Positions 3,141 to 15,033 of a DNA stretch of 64,000 nt are shown one piece after another. The stretch lies in NCBI GenBank assembly GCA_026005055.1, contig BPKI01000001.1, positions 682,001-746,000 on the forward strand, in the 5' to 3' direction. The notes beneath the pieces are model-generated. The model was not told the DNA's origin. It did no database searches and saw only the letters and a list, made by a program, of their open reading frames with translations. This DNA is from Lysobacterales bacterium (lineage in GTDB: Bacteria > Pseudomonadota > Gammaproteobacteria > Xanthomonadales > BPKI01). The position numbers and the translations under genes were made by a program. How positions within the stretch are numbered: the first letter of the stretch is position 1; each line of letters begins with the position of its first letter.

Positions 3141-5326
3141 TCGCGCGCGTCCTGGGATCGCTTCTCGCGCTGTTCCTCGCCCCATGCGCCGCTGCCTCCG
3201 CCGCAGCGGAGAACGGGCCGCGCCTCGCGCCGGCCGCGGAACACGCCCAAGCGGCGCTGTGGGCGAGTCGCTTCTTCTCCCGTTTCCACTATGCGGCGCG
3301 GCCGCTCGACGATGCGATGTCCGAGCGCATCCTCGAGCGCTACCTGCAAAGCCTCGATGGCGAGCGGCTCTTTTTCACCCAGGAGGATCTCGCGAGCTTC
3401 GAGCGTTGGCGGCACGCCCTCGACGACGCCATCCGCGGGCAGGATCTGTCGCCGGCCTTCGAGATCTACGAACGCTATCTCGCGCGGGTACGCGAGCGCA
3501 CCGCCTTCGCTCGCGCCTTTCTCGGCGGTGAGATTCCGCTCGACCGTGACGAGAGCTATCGAGTGGCTCGCGCCAAGGCACCATGGGCGAAGGACGAGGA
3601 GGCGCTCGATGAGCTGTGGCGACGCCGCGTCACCAACGACGTGATCAGGCTTCTGCTCGCCGGGCGCGAACTGTCCGATGCGAAGAAGACCCTGGACCGC
3701 CGTTACCTGAGCTTCGAGAAGCGCATCCTCGAGCTCAAGGCGGACGACGTGTTCCAGGTCTTCCTTAATGCCTACGCGGCGGCGATGGATCCGCACACTG
3801 GCTACATGGGTCCGCGGGCCTCAGAGAATTTCCAGATTTCGATGCGTCTGTCGCTCGAGGGCATCGGCGCGGTACTCCAGCGGCAGGAGGAGTACACCGT
3901 GGTGCGTTCGGTGGTGGCCGGCGGTCCCGCTGCAGTCTCGGGGCAGATCAGGCCCGGTGATCGCATCGTCGGCGTGGCGCAGGGCGACGATGGCCCGATG
4001 CAGGACGTGGTGGGCTGGCGGCTCGACGACGTGGTCGACCTGATCCGTGGTCCGAAGGGCACGGTGGTCCGCCTCGACATCTTGCCCGCCGACGCCGGCC
4101 CCGACGGCCCGCACCGGATCGTGAGGCTGGTGCGCGATCGGGTGAAGCTCGAAGATCAGGCCGCCAAGCGCGCGATCATCGAGCTGCCCGGTGAGCAGAG
4201 CCCGCGGCGCGTGGGCGTCATCGCCCTACCCGCCTTCTATCAGGACTTCGAGGCGCGCCGCAACGGCGATCCCGATTATCGCAGCACGACCAGGGACGTG
4301 GCCCGGCTCCTGCGCGAGCTCTCCGCCGAGGGCGTGGATGGCATCGTGCTCGACCTTCGCGACAACGGCGGCGGCTCCCTCAATGAGGCCACCGAGCTCA
4401 CGGGCTTGTTCGTCGAGAAGGGGCCGGTGGTACAGGTGCGCAATGCCCACGGCCGCATCGACATCGAGCAAATCCCCGAGAACCAGTCGGTCTATCGCGG
4501 GCCGCTGGCGATTCTGGTCAACCGTGCCTCCGCCTCGGCCTCCGAGATCGTCGCCGCCGCCTTGCAGGACTATGGTCGGGCGCTGATCATCGGCGAACCC
4601 ACCTACGGCAAGGGCACGGTGCAGAACCTCATCGACCTCGATCGCATCGTCAACAACGAGCGGCCGAAGCTCGGACAGCTCAGGCTTACCGTGGCCCAGT
4701 TCTACCGGATCAGCGGCGGCTCCACCCAAAATCGCGGCGTCGAGCCGGATATCGGCTTTCCGATCACGCTGGATCCCACCGAGTTTGGCGAGTCGGCGCT
4801 GGACAACGCCCTGCCCTACAACACGATCGACCCCGTGGCCTATCAGCGCTTCGGGGAGCCGGAGCGCATCGAGGATCGTCTTCGCCGGCAGCACGAGCGG
4901 CGTGTGGCCGAGGACTTGGAATTTCGTCTGCTGCGCGAGGAGCAGGAGGAGTATCGCGCGCTGAGGCGGCAGGAGGAGGTCTCGCTCAATCTCGAGAAGC
5001 GAAGAGCAGAGCGCGATGCCCAGCAGGCCCGGCGCGAGGCTCGGCGGCAGGCGCGGATCGCTGCAGGTCTGATCCAGGCCAGCGAGGACGAGTCCCCCGT
5101 GGACGATGGGCTGCTCGCCGATGAACGGCCGGTGCCCACCACCGATGAAGAGGAGTCGCCGGAGCAGCTCCTCACTCGCGACCCCCTGCTCCACGAAGCG
5201 GCGCGCATCCTGCTCGATGCCGTGGATCTCCTGCGCCAGGATCCTGCGCTCGCCGAAGCCTTGCCCTTCGAGCTGCCCGGCAAGGCCGAGAAGGGAGAAC
5301 TCGCCGTCGCCAAGGAGCAGCCCTGA
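3137..5326 (+). CDS. prc: Carboxy-terminal (tail-specific) processing protease, S41 family
   Basis: A 729-residue periplasmic protease that degrades proteins by their nonpolar C-termini and, in known systems, controls peptidoglycan hydrolases. A signal peptide (about residues 1-24) is followed by an alpha-helical N-terminal domain and a PDZ domain (about 235-330, 'LEGIGAVLQ ... [18 protein letters not shown]'). The peptidase core then carries the catalytic serine within 'NRASASASE' (S467 by spacing) and lysine K492 in 'GKGTVQ', 25 residues apart as in E. coli Prc. An Arg/Glu-rich coiled-coil region (about 575-660) lies in the C-terminal DUF3340-like part. It starts in an ATGA overlap with lipA, so it is probably co-transcribed with lipBA. 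Confidence 0.93.
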
Positions 5327-5374
5327 CCACTAAATCTAGGGTTGACAGAGCCTTTCTGACCAAATATCTTGGGT
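5327..5374 (+). promoter_or_regulatory. Pair of NrdR-like boxes upstream of nrdAB
   Basis: Two 16-bp imperfect palindromes resemble the NrdR box (acaCwAtATaTwGtgt). Box 1 is at 5327-5342 (core CTAAATCTAG, 5330-5339, 8/10 to the core consensus). Box 2 is at 5359-5374 (core AAATATCTTG, 5362-5371, 9/10). Their centres are 32 bp apart, about three helical turns, which is the usual NrdR pairing. Box 1 abuts the -35 hexamer and box 2 covers the -10 hexamer, so binding would block RNA polymerase. Repression of reductase operons by NrdR with bound (d)ATP is known; its use here is inferred. The nrdR gene is not in this window. Confidence 0.7.
5342..5370 (+). promoter_or_regulatory. Sigma-70 promoter of the nrdAB operon
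   Basis: A perfect -35 TTGACA (5342-5347), a 17-bp spacer and a -10 TATCTT (5365-5370) lie just after the prc stop codon. Predicted transcription starts near 5377, at the 5' edge of the cobalamin aptamer. Consensus -35 and ideal spacing in a high-G+C genome make this one of the clearest promoters in the window. Confidence 0.75.
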
Positions 5375-5554
5375 TCGCTGGTTCCCGGTGGCCATGGGTC
5401 CCGGGATGAAAAGGGAATCCGGTGCGAATCCGGAGCTGCCCCGCAGCGGTATGGGGAAACGAAAGCCAAGACGAGGCACTGGGGTGTCCTGCCCTGGGAA
5501 GCCTGGCGAGTAGGTGGGGTTTCGCCCCGCGTCCCTGAGCCCGAAGACCTGCCA
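5371..5554 (+). promoter_or_regulatory. Cobalamin (B12) riboswitch controlling nrdAB
   Basis: The conserved core 'GGGAATCCGGTGCGAATCC' is followed by 'GGAGCTGCCCCGCAGCGGTA' (about 5413-5451). A variable region leads to the B12 box AGCCCGAAGACCTGCC (5538-5553). These are the diagnostic adenosylcobalamin aptamer elements in the correct order and spacing. The gene downstream encodes a B12-independent ribonucleotide reductase, and a B12-dependent enzyme (nrdJ) is present 4 kb away. Known examples of this arrangement switch the B12-independent isozyme off when cobalamin is available. A hairpin directly after the aptamer is the likely expression platform. The exact 5' boundary is estimated. Confidence 0.93.
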
Positions 5555-5557
5555 GCC

Positions 5558-5590
5558 CCCGCACCGAGTGATGGGTGCGGGTCGCTTTCC
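5558..5590 (+). terminator. Candidate riboswitch terminator hairpin
   Basis: An 8-bp perfect stem, CCCGCACC (5558-5565) with GGTGCGGG (5574-5581), has an 8-nt loop and starts 4 nt after the B12 box. The following sequence (TCGCTTTCC) is only a weak U-tract, so intrinsic termination is plausible but not proven. No competing antiterminator helix was identified. Bases 5591-5735, between here and nrdA, hold no gene that I can support. Confidence 0.5.
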
Positions 5591-5735
5591 GGGGACTCTC
5601 GCGGGTGGGGTCCAGGGTCGTTCGGAGCGCGGCTTCGCGCCGCCATCGCTCGTGCCCTTTCCCCGAGCGGACCCGGGTTGAACGAGACCCTCGCCGGGGG
5701 CCGGAGGGTGCGCGATCAGGCAAGAGGCAAAGACG

Positions 5736-8102
5736 ATGGCGGAAGGGGAAGGGCTTTTCGATTCGGCTTTGGTGCTGCGCTCGCAAGAGCTGCCGAGCGT
5801 GTCGTGGCTGGTCGGGCGCGAGGGTCGGCGGGAGCCGGTGGACCTCGAAAAGATCCACCAGCGGATTGCCTCTCTTGCGCGCGATCTCGTCGCTGTCGAT
5901 CCCTTGCGGGTGGCGTTGCCCACGATTGCGGGCCTGCGCCCTGGGATGCACTTGCGCGAGCTCGATGAGCTTGCGATCCACAACGCGGCCATGCTGATCG
6001 TCGAAGACCCCGAGTACGCGGCGCTCGCGGCGCGGATGCTCGCCCGACTCATCACCGAGGATTTGGCGGCGCTCGGGGTGCGATGCTTTTCCGAGGCGGT
6101 GGCCCTCGGCCATCGGCTGGGCTTGATCAATGAGAGGCTTCACGACTTCGTCGCTGGCCACGCCGAAGTGCTCGATGCGCTGGCCGATCCTGCCGCCGAT
6201 GGGTTCTTCAGTTACTTCGGACTCAAGACAGTCTACGACCGCTACCTGCTCAGGCACCCCGAGCAGCGCGTCCCGATCGAGGGTCCGCAGCACTTTTTCC
6301 TGCGCATCGCCTGCGCCCTGGCCGAGGACCTCGAGGAAGCGGCGCGCCTTTATCGCGCGTTTTCGCGGCTTGAGTACCTGCCGAGCTCGCCGACGCTTTT
6401 CAACGCGGGAACCCGGCACGAGCAAATGTCCTCCTGCTTTCTGCTCGATTCGCCAGAGGATTCGCTTGCAGGGATTTACCAGCGCTACACGGAAATCGCC
6501 AAGCTCTCCAAATTTTCCGGCGGCATCGGCATCCCCTTCACCCGCGTGCGTGCTCGCGGCAGCCTGATCCGCGGCACGAATGGGCGTTCGAGCGGCATCG
6601 TGCCCTGGCTGAAGACGCTCGATTGCTCGGTGGCCGCGGTCAATCAGGGCGGTCGGCGCAAGGGGGCCTGCTGCGTGTACCTCGAGACCTGGCATGCCGA
6701 CATCGAGGAGTTTCTCGAGCTTCGCGACAACGTCGGCGATGAGATGCGGCGGACCCATCACCTCAACATCGCCCACTGGATCCCCGATCTGTTCATGCGC
6801 CGAGTCGAGGCCGATGAGCCTTGGTCGCTGTTCGATCCCAACGATGTGCCGGAGCTGCCCGATCTTTACGGCGAGGCCTTCGAGCAGGCTTACCGGCAAG
6901 CCGAAGCCCGAGGGCTTGCCCGCAAGGTGTTGCCGGCGCGCGAGCTCTATGGACGGATGATGCGCACCCTCGCCGAGACCGGCAACGGCTGGATCTGCTT
7001 CAAGGACCGGGCCAATGCGCTTTGCAACCAGACCGCGCTGCCCGGTCGGGTGGTCCACAGCTCCAATCTTTGCACCGAGATCCTCGAGATCACGTCGGAG
7101 GAGGAGACGGCGGTCTGCAACCTCGGCTCGATCAACCTCGCCCGCCACTGCGACGAGCAGGGTCGTTTCGACTTCGCCAAGCTCGCTCGGACGGTGCGGC
7201 TTGCGGTTCGGCAGCTCGATCGGGTGATCGATCTCAACGATTACCCGATCGAGAGCGCGCGCCGCGCGAATCTGCGCTGGCGGCCGATCGGCCTCGGGGT
7301 GATGGGCCTGCAAGACGTTTTCTTCCGCCTGCGCCTGCCCTTCGACAGCGAAGAGGCCTTGCGCCTCGCTCGCCGGATCGCCGAGGAGGTTTATTACCAT
7401 GCCCTCGATACCTCCTGCGACCTCGCCATCGAGAAAGGTCCGCATCCGGCTTTCCCCGAGACCCGTACCGCGCGCGGCGCTCTCCACCATGAGCTGTGGG
7501 GCGCTCGGCCCGAGTGCCCGGAGCGCTTCGACCACCTCAAGGCGCGCATCGCCGCCCATGGTCTTCGCAACAGCTTGCTGATCGCCATCGCGCCCACCGC
7601 CACGATCGCCTCGATCGCCGGCTGCTACGAGTCGGTCGAGCCACAGCTGAGCAATCTGTTCAAGCGCGAGACGCTCTCCGGCGAGTTCTTGCAGATCAAT
7701 GCTGAGCTGGTGGCCGAGCTCAAGCGGCTTGGGCTGTGGACGCCGGCGATGCGGGAACGGATCATCCTCGCCGATGGCTCCGTGCAAGGGATCGAGCAGA
7801 TCCCGGAGATTCTCCGGCGGGTGTACCGCACCGCCTGGGAGCTGCCGATGCGGGCCTTGATCGATCTCGCCGCCGCGCGTGCCCCCTTCGTCGATCAAGG
7901 GCAGTCGCTCAATCTCTTCCTGGCCAGGCCCACCATCGGGGCCTTGTCCTCGATGTACATGTACGCCTGGAAGCAGGGGCTCAAGACCACCTATTACCTG
8001 CGCTCGCGGCCGGCGAGCTCGATCGCCAAAGCGACCGTTTCCGCGCAGGCGGCGGTGAGCTGCTCGCTGGCCCAGCCCGAGACCTGCGAGGCTTGCCAAT
8101 GA
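5736..8102 (+). CDS. nrdA: Class I ribonucleoside-diphosphate reductase, large (alpha) subunit
   Basis: Reduces ribonucleotides to deoxyribonucleotides together with the NrdB radical subunit. At 788 residues it has an N-terminal ATP-cone-like region (about 20-95). The ten-stranded barrel carries the finger-loop triad N444-x-C446-x-E448 in 'SSNLCTEILE', and the 'APTATIASIAGC' loop. The C-terminal swinging-arm cysteine pair is C-E-A-C in the last five residues. The leader of roughly 360 nt contains the cobalamin riboswitch and NrdR-like boxes. The stop overlaps the nrdB ATG (ATGA). The start at 5736 is the first ATG after the riboswitch in this frame, preceded by a modest purine-rich stretch (AAGAGGCAAAG). 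Confidence 0.95.
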   Translation: MAEGEGLFDSALVLRSQELPSVSWLVGREGRREPVDLEKIHQRIASLARDLVAVDPLRVALPTIAGLRPGMHLRELDELAIHNAAMLIVEDPEYAALAARMLARLITEDLAALGVRCFSEAVALGHRLGLINERLHDFVAGHAEVLDALADPAADGFFSYFGLKTVYDRYLLRHPEQRVPIEGPQHFFLRIACALAEDLEEAARLYRAFSRLEYLPSSPTLFNAGTRHEQMSSCFLLDSPEDSLAGIYQRYTEIAKLSKFSGGIGIPFTRVRARGSLIRGTNGRSSGIVPWLKTLDCSVAAVNQGGRRKGACCVYLETWHADIEEFLELRDNVGDEMRRTHHLNIAHWIPDLFMRRVEADEPWSLFDPNDVPELPDLYGEAFEQAYRQAEARGLARKVLPARELYGRMMRTLAETGNGWICFKDRANALCNQTALPGRVVHSSNLCTEILEITSEEETAVCNLGSINLARHCDEQGRFDFAKLARTVRLAVRQLDRVIDLNDYPIESARRANLRWRPIGLGVMGLQDVFFRLRLPFDSEEALRLARRIAEEVYYHALDTSCDLAIEKGPHPAFPETRTARGALHHELWGARPECPERFDHLKARIAAHGLRNSLLIAIAPTATIASIAGCYESVEPQLSNLFKRETLSGEFLQINAELVAELKRLGLWTPAMRERIILADGSVQGIEQIPEILRRVYRTAWELPMRALIDLAAARAPFVDQGQSLNLFLARPTIGALSSMYMYAWKQGLKTTYYLRSRPASSIAKATVSAQAAVSCSLAQPETCEACQ

Positions 8103-9133
8103 GTGCCGTGGAATCCTCTCTTCGCGGTTCGAGCCGCTTGCTCGATCCGGGTTTTTTCCTCAGCTTGCGGCCGATGCGCTATCCGCGCTTTTACGAGATG
8201 TATCGCCAGGCGGTGCGCAACACCTGGACGGTGGAAGAGGTGGATTTCTCCACGGATCTCGATGACCTCAGGCTTCGCATCGGCCCTGGCGAACGCCATC
8301 TGATCGAGCGCTTGGTCGCGTTTTTCGCGACCGGCGATTCGATCGTCGCCAACAACCTGGTGCTCAATCTCTACCGTCACATCAACGCGCCCGAAGCGCG
8401 CTTGTTCCTGTCGCGGCAACTGTTCGAGGAGGCGCTGCACGTCCAGTTCTACCTCACCCTGCTCGACGCCTATCTGCCCGATCCCAAGGCGCGACAGCGG
8501 GCCTTCGCGGCGGTGGAGCATATCCCCTCCATCCGCCGCAAAGCGGAGTTCTGCTTCCGCTGGATCGATTCGATCCATGAGCTCAAGACCTTGCGCTCGG
8601 CGGAGGATCGGCGCCGTTTCCTGCTCAACTTGATCGGCTTCGCCGCTTGCGTGGAGGGCTTGTTCTTCTTTGCCGCTTTCGCATACGTGTATTTCCTGCG
8701 CTCGCGCGGGTTGCTCCATGGGCTGGCGAGCGGCACCAACTGGGTCTTCCGCGACGAAAGCGGGCACATGGCCTTCGGCTTCGCGGTGGTGGATACGGTG
8801 CGGGAAGAGGAGCCATCGCTCTTCGATCGGGCGCTCGGCCACCAGGTCGTGGCCATGCTCGAGGAGGCGGTGGATTGCGAAACCCAGTTTGCGGCCGATG
8901 TGCTCGCCGAGGGGGTCGCCGGCCTCAGCTTGCGCGATATGCGCCGATACCTCGAGTACGTCGCCGATCAGCGCCTGCTTCAGCTCGGCCTCGAACCCCG
9001 CTTCGGGGCGCGCAATCCGTTCCCCTTCATGAGCCTGCAGGACGTGCAGGAGCTCACCAACTTCTTCGAGCGGCGGGTGAGCGCGTATCAGGTGGCCGTG
9101 GAGGGCGAGGTGCGCTTCGACGAGCCGTTTTAG
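8099..9133 (+). CDS. nrdB: Class I ribonucleoside-diphosphate reductase, small (beta) radical subunit
   Basis: A 344-residue ferritin-like diiron protein that supplies the tyrosyl radical to NrdA. Metal-ligand and radical residues are present: D80 in 'FATGDS'; E111-x2-H114 followed by Y118 in 'EEALHVQFY', aligning with E115/H118/Y122 of E. coli NrdB; a glutamate in 'CVEGLFFF'; and E-x2-H in 'DESGHMAFG'. The retained tyrosine argues for class Ia rather than a Phe-substituted class Ic enzyme. ATG 8099 overlaps the nrdA stop, so the two are translationally coupled. The 3' end overlaps the convergent M17 peptidase stop by 4 bp. Confidence 0.95.
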   Translation: MSAVESSLRGSSRLLDPGFFLSLRPMRYPRFYEMYRQAVRNTWTVEEVDFSTDLDDLRLRIGPGERHLIERLVAFFATGDSIVANNLVLNLYRHINAPEARLFLSRQLFEEALHVQFYLTLLDAYLPDPKARQRAFAAVEHIPSIRRKAEFCFRWIDSIHELKTLRSAEDRRRFLLNLIGFAACVEGLFFFAAFAYVYFLRSRGLLHGLASGTNWVFRDESGHMAFGFAVVDTVREEEPSLFDRALGHQVVAMLEEAVDCETQFAADVLAEGVAGLSLRDMRRYLEYVADQRLLQLGLEPRFGARNPFPFMSLQDVQELTNFFERRVSAYQVAVEGEVRFDEPF

Positions 9134-12014: not shown

Positions 12015-12062
12015 ATACAAGATCTAGTTGCCAGCCTGCCAGAAAGACACAACATTTCGGTT
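12015..12062 (+). promoter_or_regulatory. NrdR-like box pair and promoter upstream of nrdJ
   Basis: Box 1 is at 12015-12030 (core CAAGATCTAG, 12018-12027; both differences from the consensus are symmetric). Box 2 is at 12047-12062 (core CAACATTTCG, 12050-12059, 7/10). Centres are 32 bp apart, identical to the pair before nrdAB. A candidate -35 TTGCCA (12028-12033) follows box 1, and a weak -10 AACATT (12051-12056) lies inside box 2. The same geometry is therefore seen at both reductase promoters. No cobalamin riboswitch is seen in the leader, roughly 90 nt long, before nrdJ. Confidence 0.6.
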
Positions 12063-12157
12063 TGATCGTGGGGGAGGGTCGATGCTGCGGCGTCTCGCGT
12101 CGGAGCGGGTCCTTCCCCGCCGGGTGAGCTCCGTATCACGCCAAGGTGTCAGCCGTC

Positions 12158-14308
12158 ATGAGCATGCCAGCAGAGTCTCTCGCCGGGCGCGGCGAGGTGC
12201 CCCTGATCCCGCTTCAGCCCGCCTCCCGGGACATCTGGGACAAGAAGTACCGCCTGCGCACCCTCAAGGGCGAGCCGGTCGATGAGGACATCGATGCCAC
12301 CTGGCAGCGGGTGGCGCGTGCGCTGGCCGAGGTCGAGGCGACCGAGGCGAAGCGCCGGTATTGGTACGAGCGCTTCCTTTGGGCGCTCCGACAGGGGGCC
12401 ATCCCTGCAGGACGGATCGTGTCCAATGCCGGTGCGCGCGAGCACAAGCCCAACACCTCCACGATCAACTGCACCGTCTCGGGGCCGATCCATGACTCGA
12501 TGGACGACATCCTGAGCAAGGTGCACGAGGCCGGGCTCACGCTCAAAGCCGGTTGCGGCATCGGCTATGAGTTCTCCACGCTCAGGCCGCGCGGGGCTTT
12601 CGTCGCCGGTGCCGGGGCTTACACCTCGGGGCCGCTGTCGTTCATGGACATCTACGACAAGATGTGCTTCACCGTCTCCTCCGCCGGTGGTCGCCGCGGG
12701 GCGCAGATGGGCACCTTCGACGTTTCGCACCCGGACGTGCGCGAGTTCATCCGCGCCAAGCGCGAGGATGGGCGGCTTCGGCAGTTCAATCTCTCGCTGC
12801 TCATCACCGATGACTTCCTGCGCGCGGTGGAGAACGACGAGGAATGGCCCCTGGTCTTCCCGGTCCATTCCAAGGAAGCAAGCGAGCTCGATCTCGACGA
12901 CCCCGCGCAGGTGCTATGGCGCGACTGGCCGATCCAGGAAGGCTACATCGTGCGCGAGGACGGCAAGGTCGCGTGCAAGGTGTACCGCCGGATCAAGGCC
13001 CGGCACCTGTGGGACCAGATCATGGCCTCCACCTATGACTATGCCGAGCCTGGGTTCATCCTCATCGACCGGATGAACGAGATGAACAACAACTGGTGGT
13101 GCGAGAACATCCGCGCCACGAATCCGTGCGGGGAGCAGGGCCTGCCGCCCTATGGTGCCTGCCTGCTCGGTTCGGTCAATCTCACCCGCTTCGTCGAGGC
13201 CCCCTTCACCGAGAAGGCGCGCTTCGATTGGGAAAGCTACCGCGAGGTGGTCAAGGTCTTTACCCGGATGCTCGACAACGTGGTCGAAATCCACGGTCTG
13301 CCGCTTGCCAAGCAGGCGGAGGAAATCCGCCGCAAGCGGCGGCATGGCATGGGCTTTCTGGGTCTGGGCTCGACCCTGACCATGCTCAGGATGCGCTACG
13401 GCAGCCCCGAGTCGCTCGCCTTCACCGAGGCGGTGACCCGGGAGATGGCGATCGCGGGTTGGGAGGTCGGTGTGGAGCTCGCCAAGGAGAAAGGTCCCGC
13501 GCCGATCATGGAGGAGCGCTTCGAGGTGACGGCAGCGATGCTCGCCAAGCGTCCGGAGATGGCCCGCGACGGGATCAAGGTGGGGGATCGGCTTCCCGGC
13601 AAGGTGCTGCACGCGCGCTACTCGCGCTACATGCAACGGATCGGTGAAGTGCGGCCCGATCTGATCGAAGCGATCGCCGAGCATGGCGCGCGCTTCACCC
13701 ACCACACCTCGATCGCGCCCACCGGCACGATCTCGCTCTCGCTTGCCAACAACGCCTCGAACGGCATCGAGCCTTCCTTCGCGCATCAGTACTTCCGCAA
13801 CGTGATCCGCGAAGGCAAGAAGACCAAGGAGCAGGTCGAGGTGCTCTCCTACGAGCTCCTCGCCTACCGCACCTTGGTCAATCCCAAGGCCAAGCCCTAC
13901 GCCGAGCGGGAAGAGGAGAAGCTACCCGAGTACTTCGTGACCGCCGAGGACATCACGCCCATCGATCACGTGAACGTCCAGGCGGCGGCGCAGAAGTGGG
14001 TGGACTCCTCGATCTCGAAGACGGTCAACGTCCCGACCGACTTCCCCTACGAGCGCTTCAAGGACGTGTATCTGCACGCCTGGAAAGCGGGGCTCAAGGG
14101 CTGCACCACTTTCCGCTTCAACCCGGAGGCGTTCCAGGGGGTGCTGGTCAAGGAGAAGGACCTCGAGAACACCACCTACCGCTTCATCCTCGAGGATGGT
14201 TCGGTGGTCGAGGTCAAGGGCAACGAAGAGATCGAGTACGACGGCGAGACGCACACCGCCGCCAACCTCTTCGATGCGCTCAAAGAGGGCTACTACGGGA
14301 AGTTCTGA
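12158..14308 (+). CDS. nrdJ: Adenosylcobalamin-dependent (class II) ribonucleotide reductase, catalytic subunit NrdJa
   Basis: Makes deoxyribonucleotides with a cobalamin-derived thiyl radical and works with or without oxygen. From ATG 12158 the protein is 716 residues. It has the first active-site cysteine C105 in 'INCTVSGP' and the 'AGCGIGYEFSTLRPRGA' and 'GGRRGAQMGTFDVSHPD' blocks of the class II/TSCPD-linked family. The finger-loop triad is N322-x-C324-x-E326 in 'TNPCGEQGL', and the 'APTGTISLS' phosphate loop is present. It ends without the C-terminal redox cysteines, which are on the next gene. GTG 12146 is an alternative start. It is the partner isozyme that explains the B12 riboswitch on nrdAB. 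Confidence 0.93.
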   Translation: MSMPAESLAGRGEVPLIPLQPASRDIWDKKYRLRTLKGEPVDEDIDATWQRVARALAEVEATEAKRRYWYERFLWALRQGAIPAGRIVSNAGAREHKPNTSTINCTVSGPIHDSMDDILSKVHEAGLTLKAGCGIGYEFSTLRPRGAFVAGAGAYTSGPLSFMDIYDKMCFTVSSAGGRRGAQMGTFDVSHPDVREFIRAKREDGRLRQFNLSLLITDDFLRAVENDEEWPLVFPVHSKEASELDLDDPAQVLWRDWPIQEGYIVREDGKVACKVYRRIKARHLWDQIMASTYDYAEPGFILIDRMNEMNNNWWCENIRATNPCGEQGLPPYGACLLGSVNLTRFVEAPFTEKARFDWESYREVVKVFTRMLDNVVEIHGLPLAKQAEEIRRKRRHGMGFLGLGSTLTMLRMRYGSPESLAFTEAVTREMAIAGWEVGVELAKEKGPAPIMEERFEVTAAMLAKRPEMARDGIKVGDRLPGKVLHARYSRYMQRIGEVRPDLIEAIAEHGARFTHHTSIAPTGTISLSLANNASNGIEPSFAHQYFRNVIREGKKTKEQVEVLSYELLAYRTLVNPKAKPYAEREEEKLPEYFVTAEDITPIDHVNVQAAAQKWVDSSISKTVNVPTDFPYERFKDVYLHAWKAGLKGCTTFRFNPEAFQGVLVKEKDLENTTYRFILEDGSVVEVKGNEEIEYDGETHTAANLFDALKEGYYGKF

Positions 14309-14310
14309 AC

Positions 14311-15033
14311 ATGGCGATCCGCATCGACAAGAAGATCGTGGGTTATGAAGTCGTCAAACCGACCAGCGATGAGCCTGGGGCAAGCAACGCTCCGCCGACC
14401 TCCGGGGGCGAAGTCATCCAGATGCACGAGCGCCTGGAGCGGCCAGAAGTGCTGCTGGGCGCGACCTACAAGATCAAGAGCCCGCTGTTCGAGCATGCGC
14501 TTTACGTGACCATCAACGACATCGTGCTCAACGCCGGCACCCCGCACGAGCAGCGCCGCCCCTTCGAGATCTTCATCAACTCGAAGAACATGGATCATTT
14601 CCAGTGGATCGTGGCGCTGACGAGGATCATCAGCGCGGTGTTCCGCAAGGGCGGCGACGTCACCTTCCTGGTCGAGGAGATGAAGGCGGTCTTCGATCCG
14701 CGCGGCGGCTACTTCAAGCCGGGCGGCAAGTACATGCCCTCGATCGTGGCCGAGATCGGGGCGGTGATCGAGGATCACCTCAAGGCCATCGGCCTGATCC
14801 ATGATCCTGGTCTCAGCCCGGAACGACGGCGGCTGATCGAGGAAAAACGCCGCGAGCTCCGGCAACGGTCGAAGCGCCAGGATCTGGCCACCGCTGGTGA
14901 AGAGCAGGACATCGGCACGGAGGTCTCCTATCCGCCCCATGCCACGCTCTGCGAGCGCTGTCACACCAAGGCCGTGGTCGTGCTCGAGGGTTGCGCGGTT
15001 TGCCTGCATTGCGGACATTCGAAGTGCGGCTAG
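14311..15033 (+). CDS. nrdJb: Class II ribonucleotide reductase second subunit NrdJb (TSCPD domain, C-terminal cysteines)
   Basis: A 240-residue protein that starts 2 bp after the nrdJ stop. Residues about 45-165 form a TSCPD-type domain ('TYKIKSPLFEHALYVTIND ... GDVTFLVEEMKAVFDP'). A charged linker leads to a C-terminal cysteine cluster, C-x2-C near residue 213 and 'CAVCLHCGHSKCG' at the end. In single-chain class II enzymes these parts are the C-terminus of NrdJ. In Pseudomonas the enzyme is likewise split into NrdJa and NrdJb, and this pair matches that layout. The inferred role is re-reduction of the active-site disulfide of NrdJa. Co-transcription with nrdJ is near certain. Confidence 0.88.
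   Translation: MAIRIDKKIVGYEVVKPTSDEPGASNAPPTSGGEVIQMHERLERPEVLLGATYKIKSPLFEHALYVTINDIVLNAGTPHEQRRPFEIFINSKNMDHFQWIVALTRIISAVFRKGGDVTFLVEEMKAVFDPRGGYFKPGGKYMPSIVAEIGAVIEDHLKAIGLIHDPGLSPERRRLIEEKRRELRQRSKRQDLATAGEEQDIGTEVSYPPHATLCERCHTKAVVVLEGCAVCLHCGHSKCG

Follow-up and report, generated by a model that had tools for sequence, protein, structure and literature searches.

Isozymes of B12-dependent enzymes form an established category within cobalamin regulons (PMC3766115). In 2004, B12 elements were described in delta-proteobacteria at B12-independent ribonucleotide reductases, in genomes that also encode NrdJ, and the same logic was put forward for them (PMC545781). A coenzyme B12 riboswitch at nrdABS of Streptomyces coelicolor was reported in 2006 (Borovok et al., as cited in PMC4991794). 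For nrdAB of Propionibacterium acnes, the same logic was published in 2013 with transcription data: the elements follow in the order nrd-box, riboswitch, nrdAB, and much of the transcription ends before the first gene (PMC3848588).

Here we describe a 64-kb stretch of DNA (the window) from a Xanthomonadales-type bacterium, in which a cobalamin riboswitch aptamer precedes nrdAB and nrdJ lies nearby. As in S. coelicolor, a coenzyme B12 riboswitch stands ahead of a class I nrdAB (class Ia in S. coelicolor) and a class II nrdJ is also present in the genome; S. coelicolor differs in belonging to another phylum, in having nrdS in the operon, and, as far as the account in PMC4991794 goes, in a control described as transcriptional; the present leader yielded no U-run terminator. 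The order of elements in P. acnes is the order found here, but P. acnes has an extra switch at nrdDG and cotranscribes nrdJ with nrdR (PMC3848588), whereas in the present genome no nrdD was found and the start of nrdJ lies 4 kb beyond nrdA. The delta-proteobacterial nrdDG likewise combines a B12 element with a reductase that needs no B12, in genomes that have nrdJ, but that enzyme is class III (PMC545781) and ours is class I. Pseudomonas aeruginosa shares the combination of a split class II NrdJab with a class Ia NrdAB, but the slight response of its nrd genes to B12 is described as riboswitch independent, and a class III enzyme is also present (PMC5962746). Further parallels are found among other Xanthomonadales and among Myxococcales, for example in Rehaibacterium, Lysobacter, Pseudoxanthomonas, Dyella, Rhodanobacter, and Archangium, where the aptamer also stands upstream of nrdA. 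Most of these leaders have tandem NrdR-box-like sites, and the P13 hairpin lies at a similar distance, but nrdJ lies away from nrdA wherever positions can be compared. An earlier note on this DNA had called the logic known for a few bacteria, which understates its spread, since the switch precedes nrdA in most of the relatives examined and has been published for several phyla. In the literature searched, we found no paper on a Xanthomonadales nrdAB switch by name; this instance may be undescribed, and its kind is not new.

A complete cobalamin aptamer precedes nrdAB

A cmscan search of the whole 64-kb window returned RF00174 (Cobalamin) as the sole Rfam match at gathering level. The match lies at positions 5362-5570 of the forward strand and scores 118.9 bits (E = 3.2e-29) against a cut-off of 31.5; it is complete and untruncated, covering model positions 1-189. 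The conserved core GGGAATCCGGTGCGAATCCGGAGCTGCCCCGCAG (~5413-5446) is readable in the sequence, with the L5 loop region CTGCCCCGCAG at 5436-5446, and the B12 box AAGACCTGCC (5544-5553) was located from the match and by sequence inspection. The 3' end of the aptamer is 165 nt from nrdA. The earlier note had pointed to a core and a B12 box ahead of nrdAB, had given the element as 5371-5590, which covers the aptamer to within about 20 nt, and had asked for a covariance search with the Rfam model. The outcome of that search confirms a cobalamin riboswitch aptamer ahead of nrdAB.

A sigma-70-type promoter (TTGACA-17-TATCTT, forward strand, 5342-5370) directly abuts the start of the aptamer. It is the lone promoter-like site in 5300-5800 (mean in shuffled sequences, 0.0) and suggests that transcription of the nrdAB leader starts near 5377. 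Since the promoter places the 5' end of the RNA there, ~15 nt at the start of the Rfam match would be promoter DNA, and the RNA portion of the aptamer would run from ~5377.

Tandem NrdR-type sites at nrdAB and nrdJ

The nrdA promoter also carries tandem NrdR-box-like sites, which, like a second pair before nrdJ, are absent from the earlier note. Site 1 (CCACTAAATCTAGGGT, 5327-5342) and site 2 (ACCAAATATCTTGGGT, 5359-5374), the latter overlapping the -10 hexamer, each agree with ACACWATATWTWGTGT at 12 of 16 positions. They are separated by 16 bp, and spacers of 15-16 bp are the norm for NrdR-box pairs (PMC12051234). The pair ahead of nrdJ spans 12015-12062 (12015-12030 and 12047-12062). No site matched the strict NrdR consensus even with 3 mismatches allowed; sites were ranked instead on a tandem-pair score, by which the pair at the nrdA promoter comes first and the nrdJ pair second on the window's forward strand. 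Nearly all close relatives have identically spaced pairs ahead of nrdA, and the genome encodes nrdR (TIGR00244, 199 bits). These results suggest that NrdR binds the tandem sites of both operons. The riboswitch would then not be the sole control, because the nrdAB and nrdJ operons both have such sites.

The two reductases are close neighbors in this genome only

All four reductase genes lie on the forward strand. nrdA (5736-8102; TIGR02506, 718 bits versus 341) encodes a class I large subunit with an ATP-cone, and nrdB (8099-9133; Ribonuc_red_sm), which overlaps nrdA by 4 bp, encodes the class I small subunit. These family assignments agree with the earlier statement that the nrdAB product does not depend on B12. 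The adenosylcobalamin-dependent class II enzyme is split into nrdJa (12146-14308; TIGR02504, 593 bits versus 400) and nrdJb (~14311-15033), a TSCPD-domain second part with C-terminal cysteines. Two genes on the opposite strand, for a leucyl aminopeptidase and a DegP/HtrA protease, separate nrdB from nrdJa, and nrdJ begins 4.0 kb past the stop codon of nrdA, in agreement with the earlier note. A search of this genome for relatives of NrdA returned nrdA and nrdJ only, and the class III gene nrdD was not found in it. In G024, G057, G061, G075, G098, and G101, nrdJ gives a two-piece match within one long frame (1098-1162 amino acids), probably owing to inteins.

The tight linkage that the earlier note had singled out is not a property of the group. 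Relatives carry nrdA and nrdJ at least 26 kb apart (~26 kb in G053, 53 kb in G012, and hundreds of kilobases to megabases in the others with both genes on one contig) or on separate contigs. Since it is not retained in relatives, we rejected a functional role for the linkage, which on the present data is incidental.

The switch and nrdJ mostly occur together

A first survey covered 61 genomes, comprising this genome and members of the same order. In 14 relatives, as in this genome, a close nrdA is accompanied by a close nrdJ and is immediately preceded, in the same orientation, by a cobalamin riboswitch. Three genomes with a close nrdA (G022, G039, and G046) have neither a close nrdJ nor a riboswitch at nrdA. 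In G006, G036, and G057, from other families, a more distant class I-like enzyme is also preceded by a cobalamin riboswitch. A scan of named genomes, a few of them shared with the survey, took in 80 nrdA loci from Lysobacter, Pseudoxanthomonas, Stenotrophomonas, Luteimonas, Dyella, Rhodanobacter, Archangium, Minicystis, and others; most loci with enough upstream sequence show a cobalamin core and tandem NrdR-box-like sites upstream. nrdJ was sought in 50 genomes of this named set.

Among 57 Xanthomonadales-type genomes, 42 have both the switch and nrdJ, 13 have neither, 1 has the switch only, and 1 has nrdJ only. Counted over tips, this table gives a Fisher p of 8e-11; the NrdA tree leaves just 2 independent losses of the switch, both falling where nrdJ is absent. 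Two independent co-losses are too few for a significant test, so that the joint loss on the tree is suggestive, not significant. The common fate of switch and nrdJ fits repression of nrdAB by cobalamin, and the comparison makes the reading of the locus as an isozyme switch well supported. The earlier note had proposed a nutrient switch in which nrdAB is off with cobalamin present, when the class II enzyme serves, and on without it. The aptamer, the B12-dependent isozyme, and the retention of the switch with nrdJ and its absence without nrdJ all speak for that proposal; its repression step is one that we infer.

The genome with the switch only is L118, a metagenome-assembled genome (MAG) of the Lysobacteraceae, in which two divergent cobalamin riboswitches stand back to back upstream of nrdA (7081-7322, reverse strand; 7436-7683, forward strand). 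The genome with nrdJ only is L109 (Stenotrophomonas sp. ISL-67), whose nrdJ is a long interrupted frame and whose nrdA has no riboswitch; it sits in a clade otherwise devoid of both, and its nrdJ has possibly been regained. In G060 (L057/L093), which has no close nrdJ, the leader retains the promoter, the NrdR boxes, and the P13 segment, and 78 nt of its post-aptamer segment are 85% identical to a Pseudoxanthomonas leader, but an Rfam scan at E ≤ 1 found no aptamer in it. The gene downstream is a different class I nrdA (35% identity), and the leader looks like an eroded, fossil switch.

Cobalamin economy of the genome

The genome is a single contig of 2.44 Mb, and its gene inventory was drawn from single-family searches. 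It has one other cobalamin riboswitch, ahead of a gene for a btuB-like TonB receptor. The adenosylcobalamin ligand can be made, since a PduO-type adenosyltransferase is encoded; a CobA/CobO/BtuR adenosyltransferase was not found in the genome. For de novo corrin synthesis, the search for CobI/CbiL gave only a sub-threshold match (54 bits versus 163), probably to a related methyltransferase, which makes B12 auxotrophy likely, not established. Together, these findings suggest an organism that imports and uses cobalamin, probably without making any itself.

The genome contains metH as two reading frames that overlap by 4 bases (G000:C1:1614621-1618174; L174, L175), each matching its own portion of the MetH model, and metE was not found in it with the single marker family searched. 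Methionine synthesis appears to depend on cobalamin, a setting that the earlier note overlooked. With metH and no metE, cobalamin would be required regardless unless methionine is supplied, and nrdAB seems closer to a B12-sparing backup than to a plain on/off alternative. The earlier statement that nrdAB is on without cobalamin is limited to that extent: without an external source of methionine, expressing nrdAB would not be enough for growth.

The switch might instead serve mainly to ration scarce cobalamin by low-level tuning of its use by NrdJ and MetH, rather than to choose an enzyme by the presence or absence of the cofactor. This is a serious possibility, although we give it less than even weight. 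It accords with metH in the absence of metE, with the lack of a good CobI/CbiL, and with the second riboswitch at the btuB-like gene; against this, auxotrophy is judged from one marker family, and the metE search covered only a part of the switch-bearing relatives.

The leader downstream of the aptamer

About 45 nt past the B12 box, the leader forms the P13 hairpin (5593-5613, forward strand), whose loop contains CGCGGG, complementary to L5, and is predicted to form a kissing loop with it. In relatives, a hairpin with a G-rich loop also stands ~45 nt past the B12 box. Stem pairs 4 and 5, which are not forced by the selection of hairpins, are formed in 23 and 19 of 27 distinct versions, with several pair types, compared to 8-16 and 4 in a slid control. 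This conservation and covariation supports the usual architecture of cobalamin riboswitches, which includes an L5-L13 kissing loop (PMC9600662). The conserved kissing hairpin and its compensatory changes had been overlooked by the earlier note. In leaders L043, L047, and L048 and in those of Dyella/Rhodanobacter, a second conserved hairpin resembling CCTGCGCGCGGGAGCAGG stands ~125 nt past the B12 box, and its loop could pair with L5 too; no such hairpin was seen in the window's own leader.

Closer to the gene, nrdA has a probable Shine-Dalgarno sequence, AAGAGG (5722-5727), and the segment CCGCCATCG (5640-5648, forward strand) is complementary to 5734-5742 across the start codon. The resulting helix would cover the AUG and may sequester it; its duplex energy was reached by 3 of 1,000 shuffles. 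A scan of 5300-5800 on the forward strand found no intrinsic terminator (stem plus U-run). Because the coding strand of the leader shows no U-run terminator, a block of translation initiation is the most likely off-mechanism. The step between aptamer and gene is unproven, since the predicted accessibility of the ribosome site did not shift between P13 forced and P13 forbidden in 55 leaders (Wilcoxon p 0.92). In minimum-energy folding, the leader was no more stable than shuffles.

With the same aptamer and logic, the off-step could be premature termination of transcription, either Rho dependent or at the perfect GC-rich hairpin 5558-5581, which is followed by TCGCTTTCC. nrdAB transcripts of P. 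acnes largely end ahead of the first gene (PMC3848588), the Streptomyces switch is reported as transcriptional in the account cited (PMC4991794), and the present leader is long, untranslated, and equipped with that hairpin. We nevertheless consider termination unlikely, because the stretch that trails the hairpin is only weakly T-rich and the coding-strand scan finds no stem with a U-run. Thus, we place the translation block first and termination second, an order that is itself unproven. As for the aptamer being a functionless relic, G060 indicates that such leaders do erode and the NrdA branch of the window's sequence is long, but with a full-length, high-scoring aptamer, an intact core, B12 box, promoter, and P13, and nrdJ still in the genome, this is very improbable.

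A probable adenosylcobalamin OFF switch for nrdAB

We consider it highly probable that a canonical adenosylcobalamin riboswitch acts here as an OFF switch for nrdAB, with NrdR acting on both operons. The promoter, the aptamer, the P13 hairpin, and the reductase genes are present, and the switch is conserved with nrdJ. The RNA would begin near 5377, from a promoter overlapped by the NrdR sites. Plentiful adenosylcobalamin would bind the aptamer, and the L5-L13 kissing loop would form, with less of the B12-independent class I reductase being produced, presumably through the translational block; the B12-dependent NrdJab would then supply deoxyribonucleotides. Under scarce cobalamin, the switch would release nrdAB, whose product needs oxygen but no cobalamin, and the remaining cobalamin would be left to MetH. 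NrdR is predicted to repress both operons according to nucleotide levels. A further proposal, which we put forward tentatively and consider doubtful, is that in this bacterium, with its apparently cobalamin-dependent methionine synthesis, the switch is set to share out scarce cobalamin between NrdJ and MetH and not to register its presence or absence, with NrdR and the riboswitch together acting as a two-input gate on a single promoter and leader.

The locus is real, was correctly read in outline by the earlier note, and is ordinary; it leaves knowledge of cobalamin riboswitches unchanged. Useful points added by the analysis are the NrdR layer, the setting of metH without metE, and the joint losses. 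The locus provides a clean and conserved example, from gammaproteobacteria and myxobacteria, of B12-controlled ribonucleotide reductase choice, and the shared loss of switch and nrdJ among relatives would lend natural support to the isozyme logic.
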